From: a virus
IMG/VR virus record: IMGVR_UViG_3300048924_000109
Span: 1-30,109 of that record
Strand: one strand, 5' to 3'
DNA length: 30,109 nt
The notes below the pieces were generated by a model. It made no database searches. It was not told the DNA's origin and saw nothing but the letters and a program-made list of their open reading frames with translations. The position numbers and the translations under genes were made by a program. Shown here piece by piece: positions 13,821-24,457 of this stretch. Position 1 is the stretch's first letter, and the number at the start of each line of letters is the position of its first letter.

Positions 13821-14185
13821 GTGGCTGTCCTTCCTTGGCAGATGAAGACGACATTGGTAACGCCGTCGTAGTTGTTCGGATCGTCATCGACGATGAGGTA
13901 CTCCGTGCCGTCCGCGCCGATCGCAAGATCGCCAACCTGCGGCGAAACACCAAGCCCTATTGATCCGATGTAAATTTGCTTATCGGACGCAAGGATGGTC
14001 GTGCCATCGACGTAGCGTCGGTCATAGGACGCCGGGAACATCCGGCATGGATAGTCCGTTTGGGTGCCATCACCTCCGTTAACCGGATCTGGCGGCGCGA
14101 TGCGACGAATAATGCCTGCCTGCCCGTATTTCGTCAGCAAACGCTGAGCGGTGGCCTGCAGGCGGGTGTAGAGCGGGTTTGCCAT
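13817..14185 (-). CDS. Head closure / stopper-like protein (122 aa)
   Basis: The gene lies two genes downstream of the head-tail connector. The product begins with a helix (LYTRLQATAQRLLTKYGQAGIIRR), followed by beta-rich sequence ending TNVVFICQGR, and fits the size and layout of head closure (stopper) proteins that seal the filled head. It is coupled to its neighbours by TGATG and ATGA overlaps. The role is inferred mainly from position. Confidence 0.6.
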   Translation of the reverse strand: MANPLYTRLQATAQRLLTKYGQAGIIRRIAPPDPVNGGDGTQTDYPCRMFPASYDRRYVDGTTILASDKQIYIGSIGLGVSPQVGDLAIGADGTEYLIVDDDPNNYDGVTNVVFICQGRTAT

Positions 14186-14484
14186 CAGCGAGACCCGCCC
14201 ACTTTCAATGTCGGCCGCCAGTCGTCCTCAATTCCACTTTCGCGGATATCCTCACGCAACACATGCGCGACCGTGTCAGCAAATGCCCACATTGGCAGTA
14301 CAGCGCCGGTATCCCATAGGGTGTAGGCCTTTCCGTCCGCTGCGATGCCGACAACAGCATAGGCGCGGATATCCTGCTCGCGGACCATGTGCTCCACGCT
14401 AGACCGCAGTGTCTTGGACAAGTCACGCTTGCGGCGGTTCTCGACTTTATTTCGGTGAACTGTGAGCGATACGGATTTAGGCAT
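14185..14484 (-). CDS. Hypothetical head-tail region protein (99 aa)
   Basis: Begins two bases after the connector gene stop and overlaps the next gene by TGATG. The N-terminus is basic (VHRNKVENRRKRDLSKTL). The middle has DIRAYAVVGIAADGKAYTLWDTG, and the gene ends with a conserved-looking DWRPTLKVGG. I do not recognise a family. Gene order suggests a neck or joining component. Confidence 0.6.
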   Translation of the reverse strand: MPKSVSLTVHRNKVENRRKRDLSKTLRSSVEHMVREQDIRAYAVVGIAADGKAYTLWDTGAVLPMWAFADTVAHVLREDIRESGIEDDWRPTLKVGGSR

Positions 14485-14485
14485 G

Positions 14486-15013
14486 TCACACCCTATATGC
14501 TTCGCCAGCCAGCACGTTGCCCGCGCCCTTCTTCAGGAACTGGCTAATCATGTCGCGCACCGCCATCAGGACCGGCCGCTGAGCGTCGGCGGAGATAGAC
14601 GAATTGGCGTACTCGACTTCGAGCTGGCCGACCTTCTCGCGCTTAACAGCTGCTGATGCGGTGAAGTCCGGGTTCATGCTGCCAGGTGAGACGAGCTCGC
14701 GAAGCGCAATCTCTGCCGTGGCGTTCTTCACCTCGATCGGGATCTCGTCGATGGGAATGCCGTAGCACTCCTCGTCCTCGACACCAGCGCGTGGCCATGC
14801 GAGAGCCTGGGCCCTGCCCTTGGTGCGGTTCCCTGCCCAGGCGTAGGACACGCTCATGAAAGACGTTGCCCGACGGATGGCGGCTTCCTTCAGTGCGGTA
14901 TCGCCGGTCCACGTCGCGTTGCCGCGAGCCTGGTGATAGGTGTCCGCGAAATCAACAGAGATCAGCGCATCGGCATTCGGCAGGCCGGCGCCTGTTTCAA
15001 CGATCAGAGCCAA
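14486..15013 (-). CDS. Head-tail connector / adaptor protein (DnaT-like family)
   Basis: A 175-aa protein with the pattern GLPNADALISVDFADTYHQARG near the start, then LKEAAIRRATSFM, ALAWPRAGV and IPIEVKNATAEIALREL. This is the phage family usually annotated DnaT-like ssDNA-binding protein, which in virion modules is the connector binding beneath the portal. It is the first operon gene after the cargo block, and a terminator-like hairpin lies about 17 bases upstream of its ATG. Confidence 0.75.
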   Translation of the reverse strand: MALIVETGAGLPNADALISVDFADTYHQARGNATWTGDTALKEAAIRRATSFMSVSYAWAGNRTKGRAQALAWPRAGVEDEECYGIPIDEIPIEVKNATAEIALRELVSPGSMNPDFTASAAVKREKVGQLEVEYANSSISADAQRPVLMAVRDMISQFLKKGAGNVLAGEAYRV

Positions 15014-15029
15014 TGGCTATCTCCATGAG

Positions 15030-15054
15030 AAAAGCCGCCCTCGTAGAGCGGCTC
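15030..15054 (-). terminator. Terminator-like hairpin at the left border of the cargo block
   Basis: On the minus strand AGCCGC pairs with GCGGCT across a nine-base loop and is followed by TTTTC. It lies between the first repeat copy and the connector gene, so it would stop minus-strand transcripts leaving the cargo genes, as expected for a moron border. The late operon would have to read through it or restart downstream of it. Confidence 0.55.
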
Positions 15055-15079
15055 GAAAGGGTTCTGTTGCCCATCACAC

Positions 15080-15098
15080 GATGATGGGGCGGTGGGGT
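15080..15098 (+). repeat. Cargo-border repeat R1
   Basis: GATGATGGGGCGGTGGGGT, identical to R3. It lies 65 bases before the first plus-strand cargo gene and just outside the left terminator-like hairpin. Confidence 0.85.
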
Positions 15099-15113
15099 CG
15101 TAAGCCTAACGCG

Positions 15114-15123
15114 GGACTCGACT
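15114..15123 (+). repeat. Leader motif copy 1 (GGACTCGACT)
   Basis: The ten bases GGACTCGACT lie 40 bases before the ATG of the zinc-ribbon gene and recur 47 bases before the start of the only other plus-strand cargo gene (18526-18535). The core GACTCGA also occurs beside repeats R2 (15747) and R5 (17737). It may be a promoter or insertion-junction remnant; the length is too short to be sure. Confidence 0.4.
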
Positions 15124-15163
15124 CTTGCTTGAGACGCTGGTTTTCTAGCGGAAAGGGGGAACC

Positions 15164-15748
15164 ATGGCGCCACTTCCAATACCAGCATTTTGTGCTCAAC
15201 ACGGGCTTTTCGCGGCTACTAACCTAATTGATGCGGGGCCCAACACTCGTATCACGATTAAAAATTCCTCTGTCAGCTGCCCTCAATGCGGTCGACCTTC
15301 CGAAATCATCCCTGGCGATTATACTACAAGTTTGACTGGACTTGATCTGTTACTTAGTGCCGACATTTCCATCGAAGCGCTGCGAGCGCTTCAGTCGATT
15401 GCCAGGCAATATGAAGCCAAAGAGATTAGCGCAGAGGCAGCCGCCGAGGCAGCCGCAGAAATAGCGCCGAGCAGGTTTTCCTTCTTTAAGAACCTCACGC
15501 GATCGGAGAAGCTTCAGATATTCGCGGTACTCGCGCCGATCATTGGGGCGATCATAACCACAAAGATGAGCGGCAACGAGCCTACCGTTGTGATCAACAA
15601 CTACGCACCGAAGCCTGCCATCACCGAGACGATAAGGAGTTACCCGCGCTTCCCAGCACTTCCCGAAGTCGGCCCACTGCCGCCTACAAAGCCTAAACAG
15701 AACCGCCACGAGCGGCGAAAAGCGAAGAAGCTCGCGCCGCGGTGTTGA
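15164..15748 (+). CDS. Zinc-ribbon and membrane-helix cargo protein (194 aa)
   Basis: The N-terminal half resembles a zinc ribbon: FCAQHGLF supplies Cys and His, and VSCPQCGRPSEI, about 35 residues later, supplies CPxCG. A helical segment rich in alanine and glutamate follows (ISAEAAAEAAAEIAPSR). Next is one probable membrane helix (LQIFAVLAPIIGAIITTKM), then NEPTVVINNYAPK and a basic, proline-rich C-terminus. A strong AAAGGGGGA ribosome site precedes the ATG. The gene faces away from the late operon and lies between R1 and R2. A sensor domain coupled to a membrane helix suits an exclusion or defence protein, but this is inference; no named family is certain. Confidence 0.75.
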   Translation: MAPLPIPAFCAQHGLFAATNLIDAGPNTRITIKNSSVSCPQCGRPSEIIPGDYTTSLTGLDLLLSADISIEALRALQSIARQYEAKEISAEAAAEAAAEIAPSRFSFFKNLTRSEKLQIFAVLAPIIGAIITTKMSGNEPTVVINNYAPKPAITETIRSYPRFPALPEVGPLPPTKPKQNRHERRKAKKLAPRC

Positions 15749-15762
15749 CTCGATCTGGAACA

Positions 15763-15781
15763 GATGATGGGGCGGCGGGGT
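15763..15781 (+). repeat. Cargo-border repeat R2
   Basis: GATGATGGGGCGGCGGGGT, one base different from R1. It lies between the convergent ends of the zinc-ribbon gene (stop 14 bases away) and the HNH gene (stop six bases away). Confidence 0.85.
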
Positions 15782-15787
15782 GTCACA

Positions 15788-16606
15788 TCAAGAAACCCGG
15801 CCAACCACAGCATGATAGACCGGTGTTCCAAGCATACGGCAAAGGTGGATCGTCGCTAATACGTAGTTGCTGCCACCCCGTGTGACTGTCCGAAGAGAAA
15901 CATGATGCAACTTTCCGTCCTGTCTTGGCTGAGCCGTTGAATCGCCTCCAATCCAATAGCGAAACGAACCATCGGTCTTTCCAAAGATCAGATCCAACAG
16001 CATAGGCTCCATGCGAGCGTGGTGAGCAAAGGCATACGAATGAGCTATCTTTGCCAAAAACCGTGCGAACATATAAGGGTTTAGCTGACCGACCCTGACC
16101 GCCTCAAAATGTGTTCTCGTCTTCTTCTCGGTACGGTTAACGGTTGGCCCCGTTGAGAAAAACTCCCACGGTAAAGGCTGGAACGGCGGAGAACCTAGCA
16201 GAAAGCCCGCCGGCCCCATCATCAGTCCATTAAACGCCCAAGGGAAATCTTGGGGTGTCACGTCGACAGACTGGCCTACGGCGTCGAGAAAAGATCCATC
16301 CCCGGATGATGAGGTGTACAACTCAAACTTCGTCGGACGGTTCTTCTTCTTCCTCGTAGGCAGGCCGAGCGCGGTCCGCATCTCGATCATTTGCCTTTGA
16401 AGTACGAACGTTTCGATTTTGCTAGTAATCTCCGCGCATTTGACGCAACTAGCTGCGGGCAGCACGAGCGCGTTGCCAGCGAGGCCGAAGGGGATGATGT
16501 GCTCTTTGTCCAAACGGGCTTCTGTGGCGCCGCAGTAAATACATCTACCTACGGGGGCGAACCGTGTGGAAGGACTAGTAATCTCTATAGATTGGGATGC
16601 ACTCAT
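15788..16606 (-). CDS. HNH endonuclease-like cargo protein (272 aa)
   Basis: A CxxC (Cys22, Cys25 in RCIYCGATEA), a DKEHIIPFGLAGN segment with the HNH His near 36, and a second CxxC (Cys54, Cys57 in SCVKCAEI) form a zinc-stabilised HNH nuclease core. The remaining 200 residues do not match a known domain and may bind DNA or a partner. No good ribosome site was found: ATG 16606 is taken because the domain begins shortly after it, while a TTG at 16639 is an alternative. The gene is bounded by R2 and R3, which makes it a candidate driver of cassette mobility, or a free-standing homing or defence nuclease. Confidence 0.75.
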   Translation of the reverse strand: MSASQSIEITSPSTRFAPVGRCIYCGATEARLDKEHIIPFGLAGNALVLPAASCVKCAEITSKIETFVLQRQMIEMRTALGLPTRKKKNRPTKFELYTSSSGDGSFLDAVGQSVDVTPQDFPWAFNGLMMGPAGFLLGSPPFQPLPWEFFSTGPTVNRTEKKTRTHFEAVRVGQLNPYMFARFLAKIAHSYAFAHHARMEPMLLDLIFGKTDGSFRYWIGGDSTAQPRQDGKLHHVSLRTVTRGGSNYVLATIHLCRMLGTPVYHAVVGRVS

Positions 16607-16739
16607 AACTGACAATAACGACTGAGCGAGGCTAAACAAAACCTCAAAATCTTGAAGTACACCAAATTATTGGAACTCGATGAGATGGCCCACCGATATT
16701 CCTGCTTCGCTCTCCTGATTTTGTGGCATGGGAACCGAC

Positions 16740-16758
16740 GATGATGGGGCGGTGGGGT
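16740..16758 (+). repeat. Cargo-border repeat R3
   Basis: GATGATGGGGCGGTGGGGT, identical to R1. It lies upstream of the HNH gene and 177 bases beyond the 3' end of the exported-protein gene. Confidence 0.85.
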
Positions 16759-16934
16759 CCTGGCTAACAAAATATCAAATTCTTGAAAGCCAGCCGGGCC
16801 GATCTCCGCTAGCCTTCCATTGCTCCCCCAATTTCGTAGCAAGGGAGCCCCGATTGGTACCGGGTGCAAGAGCCGCCGTCCGTGCTTAGTAACAGGGACG
16901 GCGGTTTCGGGATGACGGGCGCTGCGATAGCAAC
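16759..16934. other. Cargo intergenic region with hairpins
   Basis: No gene is supported here. A minus-strand frame runs across it and through R3 (to 16603), but it overlaps the HNH start and looks unlike a protein in its second half; the part before R3 could be a decayed gene end. The region holds a GCTCCC...GGGAGC pairing (16822-16848) and the long GC-rich hairpin at 16873-16904. Confidence 0.5.
16873..16904. terminator. Strong GC hairpin, probable terminator
   Basis: A perfect nine-base-pair stem (CCGCCGTCC with GGACGGCGG) with a 14-base loop. On the plus strand TTTC follows; on the minus strand CTCTTGC follows. It lies 30 bases downstream of the exported-protein gene stop, so it most likely ends that minus-strand transcript, although its T-run is better on the plus strand. 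Confidence 0.6.
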
Positions 16935-17312
16935 TCAGTGCCAGGAGTTTACCCCCAGATCCTTCTTTCCATTCATGGCGTGAACCGTATTGGGTCCAGA
17001 CTTTACCCAGGTCTCACAAATTTCCTTGCCGGCGTCGCGTCCACCTTTCCAGGTACGACAGAACTTGTTTCCCTTGATCTCCCATTTGCCTTCGATCGGG
17101 ATTACGTCACCGCTCTTCAGCTTAACCTGGCCGTTGGCACTTCCGTCCTTCATAACGTGCAGTTCGCCACTGTAACCTTCAGTTGGTCCGCCCAGTGTCA
17201 GATCCTTGCCTCCGGCAAGGAGTGCGCTCAGTTCTTTTCCAGTCATTGCCCCCGCTGCTAGCGCCTGGGAACCTACGAATGCTACTGCGAAACCCAGTAT
17301 AACTGTTCTCAT
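16935..17312 (-). CDS. Exported small cargo protein (125 aa)
   Basis: A Sec signal peptide is clear: MRTVILGFAVAFVGSQALAA with an ALA cleavage site. The mature protein has KELSALLAGGKDLTLGG, a beta strand region GELHVMKDGSANGQVKLKSG, and a GKWEIKGNKFCRTWKGG motif with two cysteines (CRTW and ICETW) that could form a disulphide. This layout resembles DUF995-like periplasmic proteins common in Rhizobiales. AGGAGG precedes the ATG by six bases, a strong site. It is likely a host-derived periplasmic protein carried as cargo; the function is unknown. It lies between R3 and R4 with its own 3' hairpin. Confidence 0.8.
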   Translation of the reverse strand: MRTVILGFAVAFVGSQALAAGAMTGKELSALLAGGKDLTLGGPTEGYSGELHVMKDGSANGQVKLKSGDVIPIEGKWEIKGNKFCRTWKGGRDAGKEICETWVKSGPNTVHAMNGKKDLGVNSWH

Positions 17313-17404
17313 GATACCCTCCTGAAATTCAAGTCACCGGAGGATGTTACGGCGACAGGGGATGGGGTTAGCAAATGCAATTTAGAGCTAATCGGGACGT
17401 ATTA

Positions 17405-17423
17405 GATGATGGGGCGGCGGGGA
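17405..17423 (+). repeat. Cargo-border repeat R4
   Basis: GATGATGGGGCGGCGGGGA, matching R2 except for the last base. It lies one base beyond the stop of the small membrane gene and 92 bases upstream of the exported-protein gene. Confidence 0.85.
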
Positions 17424-17424
17424 G

Positions 17425-17727
17425 TTAGCTGAGTGTCTTGATCACTTCTAGAGCAATGAAGGCTGCTATTAAGCCGACGCCGATGAACGCGTAAACAGGT
17501 TCCAACTTCTGGCGCAACTCAGATCGGCCCTTCTTGCGGCAGAACACCACCGCCGGGGAGACGATCAGGATCATCCCGGCTATCATGATTGCAAATTGGA
17601 GCGCGTTGATCACTTCCGCGCGCGCCGCAGAGTTGAGAACCACCAACTGAACATAGGAACATTGTCTTTCGCTATTCGGCCTGCTCTGGCTTTGCGTGGT
17701 CTTCGTTCTTTGATCAATGCGATACAC
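17425..17727 (-). CDS. Small two-helix membrane cargo protein (100 aa)
   Basis: Two hydrophobic helices are visible: FAIMIAGMILIVSPAVVF and FIGVGLIAAFIALEVI, separated by a basic loop (CRKKGRSELRQKLEPVY). The N-terminal 40 residues are polar. The start is a GTG that overlaps the end of the upstream gene by 14 bases, with only a weak AGG before it, so the true start may be further in. It lies between R5 and R4. Membrane cargo proteins of this size often act in superinfection exclusion, but nothing proves that here. Confidence 0.6.
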   Translation of the reverse strand: MYRIDQRTKTTQSQSRPNSERQCSYVQLVVLNSAARAEVINALQFAIMIAGMILIVSPAVVFCRKKGRSELRQKLEPVYAFIGVGLIAAFIALEVIKTLS

Positions 17728-18430
17728 CTAAAATGGGACTCGATGACGGGCCGGCGGGGTGTTGGGCTGCCAAATCCTCGGCCTCCTTTAGAAGCCTTTT
17801 CACGTCATTAGCGTCCACCAAGGCCTGTGCGATTGTGAGCACCTGATAGAATGCCGGACCCATACCATTCATGATGTTTGTCTCTTTTCCCGCTTGGTCG
17901 AGCTTCTTGAAGACTTCGTCGTCTTTCTTCCTATTTCGCCCGCGATCGAGGTGCACCCCGCCCCTTTTATTTGCCATGTAGTCTATGAACTGCCGCCTAG
18001 ACACCTTTTGTCCGTCGATGATCAACGCAGCCGATTGCTTGAAATGATCGAGTGGAAGCAATCGAGGTGTCGTCGGCTCCTTCAAGCTCGACAAGCGCTT
18101 GAGTTCCTGGTCGGACACGGCCCCTCTACCAATCTGAAGTGAGACCATTTGTCCGCCCGCTGTAATACCACCACCGTTCCAAACGGTGTGAGGCTGGAAC
18201 TCTGAGCCATGTGGTTGCTCTTCAATGACAAACGCTGTTATTGACGGATGCCTCGGCTCCATCCTCAATATTTTCCAAGCTGCTATCAGAAGGTCTTCGT
18301 TCAGTAAGCGACGTAGCAACACACTGGCATGCCGGACGTTGGCTTCCGTAGCTGAAGTGGATGACAACGAAGCGAGGAATTCCAAGTCCTCCCTCACAAT
18401 CCTTACTGTTTCGAGATGCTCATCGATCAT
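17714..18430 (-). CDS. Cargo protein of unknown function (238 aa)
   Basis: A soluble protein with HPSITAFVIEEQPHGSEF in the first half and a striking SRRQFIDYMANKRGGVHLD motif near residues 145-165, a pattern I have seen in unannotated bacterial proteins. The C-terminal 20 residues (QHPAGPSSSPILG) are encoded by repeat R5 and its flank, so the repeat forms part of the coding region. The start is an ATG with a weak GGGTGA before it. The gene is divergent from the next plus-strand gene, with 152 bases between them, and overlaps the small membrane gene. No function is assigned. Confidence 0.7.
   Translation of the reverse strand: MIDEHLETVRIVREDLEFLASLSSTSATEANVRHASVLLRRLLNEDLLIAAWKILRMEPRHPSITAFVIEEQPHGSEFQPHTVWNGGGITAGGQMVSLQIGRGAVSDQELKRLSSLKEPTTPRLLPLDHFKQSAALIIDGQKVSRRQFIDYMANKRGGVHLDRGRNRKKDDEVFKKLDQAGKETNIMNGMGPAFYQVLTIAQALVDANDVKRLLKEAEDLAAQHPAGPSSSPILGVSH
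17742..17760 (-). repeat. Cargo-border repeat R5 (diverged, inside a gene end)
   Basis: On the plus strand it reads GATGACGGGCCGGCGGGGT, two bases from R2. It lies inside the last codons of the 238-aa gene, 15 bases from the start of the small membrane gene. The left flank GGGACTCGA matches the leader motif. Confidence 0.75.
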
Positions 18431-18582
18431 TATTCACCCAGTCGATCCTTGAACTGTTTGGAAACATGAACGGAGCTGCTAGCCATTTCAAGTCCGGCGG
18501 GGGAGCGACGGGCAATTCAAAGCCCGGACTCGACTTCCCTCAGATCTTCCTCCAGTTTTGGTTGGAACCCTGGGAGGATGAT
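18431..18582. promoter_or_regulatory. Divergent intergenic region of the cargo pair
   Basis: 152 bases between two divergently read cargo genes, which must hold promoters for both. It contains the second leader motif GGACTCGACT (18526-18535) and a strong GGGAGG ribosome site (18572-18577) for the plus-strand gene. I could not point to convincing -35/-10 boxes. An in-frame ATG at 18466 would extend the plus gene into this region. Confidence 0.4.
18526..18535 (+). repeat. Leader motif copy 2 (GGACTCGACT)
   Basis: Same ten bases as at 15114, again shortly before a plus-strand cargo gene. The following bases also share short runs (TGGTTTT-like and GGAACC) with the first leader. Confidence 0.4.
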
Positions 18583-19218
18583 ATGACCATCGCTGTTGGT
18601 TTTGTTTACGACGCATGGAAGTCTGATGCCGATCAGCTTGCACTAACCTTGGCAAAGAATTTGAGAGTGGAGCCCGTTCGAGCCCAGTCCTTCGGACTGG
18701 CCGGTCCGAACGATGTATTACAGTGGGTTGCCTCGTACGCTGAATGGAAAGCAATCGCCTTTGGACTAACCTTCTGGCTGGCAGACAAAATGGCAGGCGA
18801 CCTTTACGAGTTGCTCAAAGAAAAAGTGTTGAAGGCGTTTGGCAGCGATACCGAGACCGATTCCAAAATTAAAGACGTCGGAAATCTAGCCGCTGATCTA
18901 TCGAAAATCGTCCAGGACGTTCAGCACAACGGTGGCGATGTCCTTTTAACCACTCGAGAAACGCCTGTTTCAGACGGCGAGACCCTGGATAGGTCTACGG
19001 CGACGGTTTACCTACCGCCTCTGTCGAGCAACGCTAGCGTCGCGACCGCGCGGCTTATCATCCAATTTGCAACGTCGATCGCGGCGATTGACCAAAACGG
19101 TGGTGGCATTCCTTCCGAGATATTGCGCGCGGTGGTGAAAAGCAACGGCGAGGAGCTGATGGCGCTCCGTGACAGGCTGACTGAAGAGAAGGACAGTGAA
19201 GACGCGCGTGACTCTTAA
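18583..19218 (+). CDS. Cargo protein of unknown function (211 aa)
   Basis: Begins MTIAVGFVYDAWKSDADQLA, with FGLTFWLADKMAGDLYELLK as an amphipathic or membrane-touching helix near residues 65-85, then a beta-prone middle (GDVLLTTRETPVSDGETLD) and an acidic C-terminus (RDRLTEEKDSEDARDS). I chose the ATG preceded by GGGAGG at five bases; frames starting at 18361 or 18466 exist, but the first runs into the divergent gene. The gene ends 28 bases before the convergent fibre gene stop. No family is recognised. Its pairing with the divergent 238-aa gene suggests a two-gene unit. Confidence 0.7.
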   Translation: MTIAVGFVYDAWKSDADQLALTLAKNLRVEPVRAQSFGLAGPNDVLQWVASYAEWKAIAFGLTFWLADKMAGDLYELLKEKVLKAFGSDTETDSKIKDVGNLAADLSKIVQDVQHNGGDVLLTTRETPVSDGETLDRSTATVYLPPLSSNASVATARLIIQFATSIAAIDQNGGGIPSEILRAVVKSNGEELMALRDRLTEEKDSEDARDS

Positions 19219-19245
19219 GCAGATCAGCTTTGCGTCACAATTCGA

Positions 19246-20496
19246 TCACGACATCCAAGGGGCCATCTTAGCATATACAGCGGCCATGACGGGGTTCATA
19301 CCTGCATCGTTCAGATGCACGTTGCCCGCCTGGAGAAGGCTCGTCGGAACGCAACCTGCCGCGATGTCAGCAGCGTCGGCGACCGGGTCGCCATTGGCGA
19401 TCAGGATCGGCATCGCATCAACGACATTGTTGGGGTAGGCCGCCTTCAGTCCTGCCGTAATATCGCGATAGGCCGTCTTGTCCGGCTCCGTGAGCGGCGT
19501 CCTGATCGTCGGCGGAATTACCACGAAACGGCTGTGTCCAAGTGCCTGCACCGCTTGATCGTAGATTGCGAGATATGCCGCTGCGGTCGAGTAGCCATTC
19601 GCGTCACCATCCCATATCGCAGTCGGCAATGCTTTTACCGATGCACTCAGGGCTAGAATGCGATCCCGGACATTTGTGATCGTAGACCCGCCGATCGCTG
19701 ACGGATAGATTTGCTGACGCGAGAGAACCGCAAGGCGCGATATCACACCTACGTTGTTCGAGCCATCTCCGTAGCTGTCACCCTCAATAAGCGCTTTCCA
19801 GTTTGGAACGCTGTAAGCTGTGCCGATAGCCGCCTCGCTGGTGAGCAGAGGGGTCGGGATTATCGTAAAGCGGTAGATTTCGCCGCTCCATTCCTGTCCC
19901 GACGCATAGCCTCCGCCGATACGGCATTTCGTTATTGCAGGTAGCGCTGCGCTTCCGGGGGTCGCAAAAGCACCGCCTATACCGTTGATAGCAGCGAAGA
20001 ATGCTTGAGATTTGACGGACTGGACGGTTTTGAGGGTCCGGCCGAGGCTATAGGGCCCAAGGCTCGTGCTCGCCAATGTGGTGTTTGATGCGCGAACCTG
20101 CTGTATGATCTGCGAATTCGCCGAATTGTGAAGAGCCACGACTACGCTGGCGTTCGTTCCAAGATCGTTATCGAAGCTGTACAGATATTCGCTGACCGAT
20201 GGCGCCGCCTTGCGGGCCTCGCAGATTACGATGAAGTCCTGATCGGTCCAGGGAAATACGATGACATTGCCCGTCTTCATGCCGCCGATCGCCGTCAGCC
20301 AGTCACTCTGCGACTGGTGGGTCACGCCGTTATAATAGTATCGACCGGCGACGAAGTCGGCATCTACGAGCGCGCCCGGGGTTGGCGTCCAAGGCGGAAG
20401 GACCCCACCGCCCTGTCCTAGGGCGATCGACGACGCCTGCGCTCCACCCAGGTACGACTTCGAGACGGCTGCGCTGCCAAGATAGCTCGGGGTCAT
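19246..20496 (-). CDS. SGNH-hydrolase fibre protein in the head module
   Basis: A 416-aa protein. The N-terminus has fibre-like repeats (SYLGSAAVSKSYLGG, then ASSIALGQGG), followed by a beta-rich body with a lectin- or laminin-G-like look (GEIYRFTIIPTPL). The C-terminal half has an SGNH domain: LIEGDSYGDGSN with Ser near 239, block II AIGGSTITN, a degenerate block III (WDGDANG), and the terminal VHLNDAG with His near 395. It starts shortly after the upstream gene. It is a second polysaccharide esterase in this phage, distinct from the one at the tail end, and its place beside capsid genes suggests a head fibre. Confidence 0.75.
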   Translation of the reverse strand: MTPSYLGSAAVSKSYLGGAQASSIALGQGGGVLPPWTPTPGALVDADFVAGRYYYNGVTHQSQSDWLTAIGGMKTGNVIVFPWTDQDFIVICEARKAAPSVSEYLYSFDNDLGTNASVVVALHNSANSQIIQQVRASNTTLASTSLGPYSLGRTLKTVQSVKSQAFFAAINGIGGAFATPGSAALPAITKCRIGGGYASGQEWSGEIYRFTIIPTPLLTSEAAIGTAYSVPNWKALIEGDSYGDGSNNVGVISRLAVLSRQQIYPSAIGGSTITNVRDRILALSASVKALPTAIWDGDANGYSTAAAYLAIYDQAVQALGHSRFVVIPPTIRTPLTEPDKTAYRDITAGLKAAYPNNVVDAMPILIANGDPVADAADIAAGCVPTSLLQAGNVHLNDAGMNPVMAAVYAKMAPWMS

Positions 20497-23710: not shown

Positions 23711-24457
23711 TTAGTGGACAGAAGCTCCGATCTCGCCATCGCTCATCGGCGCGGCAGGATCAGGGAGGTTGTTCATGTATCGAAAGCTGGCCATACGGGC
23801 GAGATCGGCTTCATCCGGAGCCGCCCGGCTGAAGGCATCCAGGATGCGCCAGCGGTCATGGGCAGACTTGTTCGCGTCGCCGAGCATGTCTTCCAGCATG
23901 CGCTTGAGCTCCGAGCGGGCGCTGAGGCTCCGGCAGAGCTGGCGAGCCGCTGCACCGGCGCTCACACCTTCGCGATATTCTTCCTTCACCATCGCATCGA
24001 TACCGATGATGCTGCGGCGCGCGGACGCCTGGGCGTCTTCTTCCTCAACGTTCCGTCGGTAGATATCGCGGAACCACATGGGCTGCTGGCGACTGCGGTG
24101 CAGTTCATGCCACAGGAGAGACCATCCGATCTGCCAGCCGCCGTTGTTGCGATATGCGCTGAAGGCAATGAGCTGGCCGAAACCTGCACCGAACCCCGAG
24201 AAGTTGCCGCCGTGGAACTGCGCCCATGGCCGAAAAGTGAAGGTCGGCTGCCGTCGCAACGACAGCCCCCAAGACCACGTCAGGCTGTGCGGGCTGTGAT
24301 AGCTCGCGATATTCCAGACTGCCCGGCTGCTCGTTTTGCGGAAGACGGTAAACCCGGGCACAAACAGAGCAGGCACTACCAGCAGGGGCGACAGCAGAAG
24401 TGCCGCCATCACCAGCGGCATACACAGATAGCCAATCAACACGCCGATGAAGCGCAT
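23711..24457 (-). CDS. Membrane-anchored HSPHSLTWSW-family protein (248 aa)
   Basis: The N-terminal 35 residues are strongly hydrophobic (LVMAALLLSPLLVVPALFVP), forming one or two membrane helices. Residues about 49-145 are clearly related to the 137-aa protein at 28448: both contain HSPHSLTWSW, then R-R, a glycine-rich G-GxG-LI stretch, Y-R-NG-W, LLW and QQPMWF-D. A further 100 helical residues follow that the shorter relative lacks. AAGGAA precedes the ATG. It sits between portal and scaffold, an unusual place for a membrane protein. The function is unknown; a role in head assembly at the membrane or in host takeover is speculative. Confidence 0.7.
   Translation of the reverse strand: MRFIGVLIGYLCMPLVMAALLLSPLLVVPALFVPGFTVFRKTSSRAVWNIASYHSPHSLTWSWGLSLRRQPTFTFRPWAQFHGGNFSGFGAGFGQLIAFSAYRNNGGWQIGWSLLWHELHRSRQQPMWFRDIYRRNVEEEDAQASARRSIIGIDAMVKEEYREGVSAGAAARQLCRSLSARSELKRMLEDMLGDANKSAHDRWRILDAFSRAAPDEADLARMASFRYMNNLPDPAAPMSDGEIGASVH

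Follow-up and report, generated by a model that had tools for sequence, protein, structure and literature searches.

A short repeated site at the borders of accessory genes in a rhizobial-type phage suggests cassette exchange between phages and hosts

The window analysed here is the whole of the 30.1-kb IMG/VR virus record IMGVR_UViG_3300048924_000109 (30,109 nucleotides), in which siphovirus head, connector and tail genes lie on the minus strand; they include those for the terminase, portal, scaffold, major capsid protein (MCP, phrog_283), Ad1, Hc1, tail terminator, tape measure and tail fibres. This series is broken by a variable accessory island of ∼4.2 kb, for which 15014 is the better 5′ coordinate and which extends to 19245. 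It contains six open reading frames (ORFs), with both strands represented, and several copies of a short sequence that we call the boundary site. The left-hand anchor of the island is a fibre gene (19246–20496, minus strand), SGNH/GDSL-like from a weak Lipase_GDSL_2 match; the right-hand anchor, downstream in the operon, is the gene for the head-tail connector Ad1 (14486–15013, minus strand; phrog_477, E 8.8e-50). The GC content is 0.534 across the island compared with 0.606 in the rest of the window, and at third codon positions it is 0.56–0.66 for the cargo genes compared with 0.70–0.79 for most head and tail genes. The initial annotation of this locus, as ∼4.2 kb of less GC-rich, mixed-strand DNA interrupting a minus-strand operon, is thus confirmed.

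Counted from the connector, the first cargo gene (15164–15748, plus strand) encodes a protein of 194 residues with a CPxCG zinc-ribbon-like N-terminus and one membrane segment, and has no family match. The second (15788–16639, minus strand) encodes an HNH-like nuclease of 283 residues, the only cargo protein with a recognised family (HNH_5, E 2.6e-4; Pfam score 21.3, under the cut-off of 27.5), in which the CxxC, EH and CxxC zinc/HNH residues are invariant across six aligned relatives. It is followed by genes for a 125-residue exported protein with a signal-like N-terminus (16935–17312, minus strand) and for a protein of ∼100 residues with two membrane segments and a weak DUF2721 match (17425–17727, minus strand). 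The last two, of 238 residues (17714–18430, minus strand) and up to 285 residues (18361–19218, plus strand), belong to no recognised family, and no relatives of them were found. The start of the 285-residue gene is uncertain; an ATG at 18466 or 18583 fits better than that at 18361, which makes it overlap the divergent 238-residue gene. These ORF features bear out the gene content first proposed, namely two membrane proteins, an exported protein, an HNH nuclease and two unknown divergent genes, with the qualification that the HNH_5 match is below its cut-off.

The boundary site was discovered by a k-mer comparison of the island with its counterpart in the related phage L002. It is an 18-bp sequence, GATGATGGGGCGG(T/C)GGGG, present in the window as five direct copies, all on the plus strand and located either between cargo genes or at their ends; the initial annotation makes no mention of this repeat. 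Copy 1 (15080–15097) and copy 3 (16740–16757) are exact, as are the T to C variants at copy 2 (15763–15780), a few nucleotides past the stop codon of the HNH gene, and copy 4 (17405–17422), 2 nucleotides past that of the fourth gene; copy 5 (17742–17759) has two mismatches and falls within the last codons of the fifth. Allowing up to three mismatches, the window holds six matches against 0.16 expected, and none of 100 shuffles gave six; the sixth, at 16206, is on the opposite strand within the HNH gene, has three mismatches and is probably due to chance. Downstream of copy 1, inspection of the sequence reveals a terminator-like stem (15030–15053, minus strand; AGCCGC...GCGGCT then TTTT), and the segment that runs from copy 1 to the end of this stem aligns with phage L017 at 78%. 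One exact and one degenerate copy are present in L002, oriented as in the window relative to the head genes.

Relatives of the phage, retrieved with the connector and MCP as queries, are unclassified and possibly incomplete virus records; they show that the place between fibre and connector is variable. In the nearest, L002 (identical with L067), the MCP has 97% identity and the DNA flanking the island on either side aligns at 83–85%, whereas within the 4.2-kb interval only the boundary motif and ∼98 bp at the connector start are shared and the genes are wholly different; resemblance of the fibre gene itself to that of L002 is confined to the first ∼30 residues. In L070 (MCP 89%) there is no cargo, the order being MCP, a 183-residue gene, fibre, a 73-residue gene and connector. 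Phages L145 and L138 are near-twins, but L145 has one extra reversed gene, for an exported (PEP-CTERM-like) protein of 168 residues, after the fibre and before the connector, with no boundary motif. Many distant relatives with a detectable connector have an MCP-to-connector gap of only ∼200 bp.

From this variation in L002, L070 and the L138/L145 pair we conclude that the island is cargo and not conserved assembly machinery. Its genes answer to the description of morons in that a relative can lack them between the same flanking genes: the site is empty in L070 and differently occupied in L002. The initial annotation had asked whether the site varies among related phages and had named, as the outcome that would speak against cargo, the same genes conserved in all of them; the site does vary, and neither L002 nor L070 has these genes. 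That the cargo is an integral part of virion assembly, as its location between the MCP and connector genes might suggest, is already contradicted by phages with MCPs 89–97% identical that have other cargo or none, and we regard it as highly improbable.

Searches of large collections for the motif, which were by exact match, found it in 15 stretches in IMG/VR and 16 in 84,980 bacterial genomes, among which Rhizobium and its relatives are prominent. Most of the virus records have a single copy. Read in the sense of the gene, CCCCACCGCCCCATCATC, 8 of the 15 phage copies begin 0–2 bases past a stop codon, compared with a background of 0.9% (P 2e-13). Several of the genes that end there resemble fibre or GDSL-hydrolase genes; for others, without a family match, the term fibre-like is based on size, N-terminus and position. 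A search with a T variant of the motif adds two further phages with the same arrangement, the other contigs being apparent chance matches inside genes. Named phages in GenBank gave matches at chance level only. In the literature the motif string was found only in papers related to human fascin; subscription journals were mostly outside this search, and a prior description is possible. Two other roles were considered for the motif and rejected. As a prophage attachment site it fails as a general rule: in most records that have an integrase, it is ∼4–23 kb away from it, and within 1 kb only in G008. As the end of a diversity-generating retroelement target it fails too, because nearly all the phages have just a single copy when up to 2 mismatches are allowed.

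The position of the copies directly after stop codons, where the sense RNA CCCCACCGCCCCAUCAUC is rich in C and poor in G, could also be explained if the repeat were a conserved 3′-end RNA or DNA signal (Rho-loading or terminator-associated) that ends transcripts and does not recombine, the morons having arrived by ordinary illegitimate recombination. Stems resembling intrinsic terminators do follow the site in L013, L017, L019 and the window. The orientation of the site is, however, constant relative to the array although the genes point both ways, and the sites do not fold as a group: over 42 of them the mean z is -0.5, with strong hairpins at few only. A 3′-end signal also sits poorly with the homology between genomes, which starts and stops at the site, and we consider this explanation unlikely.

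Such homology is seen in bacterial chromosomes. Downstream of a TolB-like gene, the Rhizobium-type genomes L035 and L038 align at 84%, the alignment beginning precisely at the motif; the sequences on its far side are unrelated. In the four Rhizobium genomes that were measured (L201–L204) the TolB-like and DAHP-synthase genes abut, whereas in ten other genomes and in L151 and L152 they are separated by 0.7–2.6 kb of small genes. The site stands at the start of most of these inserts, and several contain further copies in the same orientation. The TolB-like/DAHP-synthase junction (L151, L152, L191–L200) is a hotspot for cargo, in which single-gene cassettes follow one another and the boundary site recurs.

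Comparisons among these arrays show cassette borders at the repeats. Positions 18–1511 of L197 match 933–2466 of L194, which has two extra cassettes between its first site and 933; positions 276–829 of L192 match 393–952 of L194 from site to site; and positions 1708–1998 of L152 match 15–298 of L200. Internal ends of homology blocks fall on sites in both genomes in 8 of 41 cases (0.29 expected; maximum 5 in 5000 draws) and in at least one genome in 20 of 41 (6.7 expected; maximum 16), figures that are not probabilities of independent events because the compared genomes are related, a point that tells against the exchange reading set out below. Precise gain or loss of single units of gene plus site is seen in the chromosomes (L194/L197, L192/L194 and L152/L200) and not yet in the window phage.

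Two cassette families are common to phage contigs and Rhizobium-type bacterial genomes. A 187-residue membrane protein of the L002 island is homologous to a 189-residue protein of the Rhizobiales genome L036 (E 3e-51), with DNA similarity that sets in precisely at the site in each of the two. Similarly, a 174-residue membrane protein of the viral contig L022 is homologous to a 173-residue protein of the chromosomal array L151 (E 5e-25), the gene lying between two sites in both. A bacterial host of this type fits the phage itself: an MCP relative at 68% identity occurs inside a Hyphomicrobiales genome (L147), which is consistent with a Hyphomicrobiales-type (rhizobia-type) host.

We therefore favour, as the probable explanation, that single accessory genes have been inserted behind the fibre gene as an array of cassettes, exchanged at a boundary site that they share, in a phage with Hyphomicrobiales-type hosts. 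A cassette would comprise one small gene in either orientation and one site of 18–20 bp, (TTT)GATGATGGGGCGGTGGGGT, the orientation of the site being constant. Cassettes would be gained, lost and swapped by recombination at the site, where two copies align as direct repeats, and from these patterns we infer that such recombination acts at the site and was the route by which the window genes entered. Copy 1, which adjoins the connector, is plausibly the oldest, since it lies beside the terminator-like stem and resembles L017 through that stem; later cassettes would have been added between 15080 and the fibre gene. Because the same site bounds cassettes in Rhizobium and the 3′ ends of exchanged fibre genes in unrelated phages, phages can presumably acquire host cassettes and vice versa. 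The recombinase could be either a dedicated integrase or a RecA- or annealing-type protein that uses the site as a short homology.

Several further observations weigh against this picture. The collection searches being exact, the apparent sharpness of the motif is partly by design. About half of the chromosomal homology borders fall on no recognisable site, copy 5 in the window is degenerate and inside a gene, and none of the six window genes was found as a cassette elsewhere. No recombinase is tied to the site. In addition, L070 and the L138/L145 pair change fibre or cargo at the same place without it, so that the site is not required for cargo to enter.

The strongest rival to exchange by way of a dedicated enzyme is homologous or annealing recombination over a short common sequence, in the manner proposed for lambdoid phages. 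Here 18–20 bp of identity would be used by phage annealing proteins or RecA, and the island would be a case of ordinary mosaicism among phages in which the junction is unusually conspicuous. This account agrees with the cassette reading in all but the machinery, and the patterns described here do not distinguish it from a dedicated recombinase. Unrelated phages do have only the motif stretch in common, beside their fibre genes, and mosaic junctions formed through short boundary sequences have been proposed earlier (PMC3029335). The serial direct-repeat arrays in chromosomes and the gain and loss of single cassettes look more cassette-like than chance mosaicism, without being decisive, and we hold general recombination to be a serious possibility that falls short of probable. 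The more specific proposal of a new cassette-recombination system, in which a dedicated recombinase acting at GATGATGGGGCGGTGGGGT would move single-gene cassettes between Rhizobiales chromosomes and their phages, and through which unrelated phages would swap receptor-binding genes, we put forward only tentatively.

Junctions between mosaic modules of phages seldom show a common sequence, which makes the exchange of tail-fibre genes and cargo hard to test. Here one short site is found in three settings: where fibre-like genes end in phages that are not related, among the cargo genes of a single phage, and separating cassettes in the chromosomes of hosts. Should it prove to be a recombination site, it would give concrete access to how single genes are traded between phages and rhizobia, and could be used to search for cargo genes, some of them possibly with a role in exclusion or defence.

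Comparison with known systems helps to define what the island is. Like integrons and CALINs (clusters of attC sites lacking integron integrases), it is an array of mostly single-gene cassettes with one recombination-type site each, uniform site orientation and mostly small unknown genes. In contrast to them, the site is a linear motif of 18–20 bp without conserved GTTRRRY/RYYYAAC cores or a conserved fold. Inspected by eye, the site contexts show GTTRRRY at some sites only, next to stop codons, and identification of the motif as attC or a hairpin was rejected on the folding result given above. No integron integrase was apparent by eye near the TolB/DAHP arrays of L151 and L152 or in the window annotation, no genome-wide search being made, and a literature search, mostly without subscription journals, found no integron-like report for Rhizobium. 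Since the sites have no integron cores and no group folding, we do not class the island as an integron, and read it as integron-like in layout without attC features.

Sites of the dif type are 28 bp long and alternate in orientation. The motif of the window is C/G-rich, occurs in direct orientation only, in Rhizobiales phages and chromosomes, and presumably is not dif-like in sequence; as its copies within each array are direct repeats, the island is not classed as a dif module. What it has in common with the dif (pdif) modules of Acinetobacter plasmids, which use XerC/XerD sites, is that a single short site flanks small gene modules, which are reshuffled among replicons (PMC13141974). Phage morons and lambdoid boundary sequences are alike in having extra genes between contiguous phage genes and a short common sequence at module junctions (PMC3029335), but the sequence in the window is repeated several times within a single island and turns up also in the chromosomes of hosts and in phages that are phylogenetically unrelated. 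That it borders swapped genes, both in Rhizobium chromosomes and in unrelated phages, suggests an undescribed cassette-exchange site common to phages and their hosts.

The cargo was initially proposed to protect the lysogen or infected cell. The variable nature of the cargo stands, from L002, L070 and the L145/L138 pair; a role in exclusion or defence has no PADLOC match and no direct support. In its strictest form this proposal has all the genes working jointly as a single exclusion or defence locus. Small membrane proteins are characteristic of exclusion genes, and relatives of the HNH protein adjoin RloB/ATPase and CHAT genes in Rhizobium leguminosarum (L060) and lie near a DUF262 gene in Paraburkholderia. 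At the same kind of site in L024 (8342–9493), a cargo gene for an O-acyltransferase (PF01757, E 2e-30) ends 11 nucleotides before an exact copy of the motif. PADLOC, however, gave no matches for any cargo protein of the window, and no relative examined has any gene of the set; the cargo genes, separated by boundary sites and pointing both ways, look like independent cassettes. A concerted locus is accordingly improbable in our view, and since no cargo protein matches a defence model we do not class the island as a defence locus. Single cassettes may act in exclusion.

For the individual cargo proteins, searches against Pfam, PHROGs and PADLOC gave nothing beyond the weak HNH_5 and weak membrane-protein matches, and a search of IMG/VR found no close relatives of the HNH, 238-, 285- and 194-residue proteins. 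AlphaFold predictions for the 238- and 285-residue proteins, with no alignment supplied, were uninformative (predicted local distance difference test, pLDDT, 37–38). Scans for terminators and for promoters, the latter of the sigma-70-like type only, found no excess over shuffles. Relatives of the HNH protein, at 27–36% identity, occur in Rhizobium, Paraburkholderia and other genomes and are patchily distributed (8 of 327 genomes of the presumed host order; 5 plasmids). The 125-residue exported protein matches a protein of the R. leguminosarum plasmid pR132502 over its full length with 66% identity. No convincing copy of the boundary site was found beside relatives of either. The cargo genes are presumably expressed; most likely their proteins serve the fitness of the lysogen or infected cell, for example as envelope proteins and an HNH nuclease, and some possibly act in exclusion or defence.

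Some HNH relatives have neighbours of separate interest. The nearest (36%), in L214 (5662–9700), lies just upstream of a terminase/portal-like cluster that is possibly a gene transfer agent or prophage. On Rhizobium plasmids (L060, 4983–6781; L061, 4956–6754) the HNH relative overlaps by 4 nucleotides a gene for a 302-residue protein that starts with a zinc-ribbon-like segment and has a HEPN-like RxxxxH motif; the two may form an HNH-HEPN pair.

Elsewhere in the window, two more genes stand out in comparison with L002. A 99-residue gene (14185–14484) between Ad1 and Hc1 is without a DNA match in L002, whose two neighbouring genes are ∼200 bp apart. Between the scaffold and portal genes, a 248-residue gene (23711–24457) with an N-terminal membrane segment has a GC content of 0.618, phage-like and unlike the island; it is missing from L002, where the DNA joins across at 777/781.

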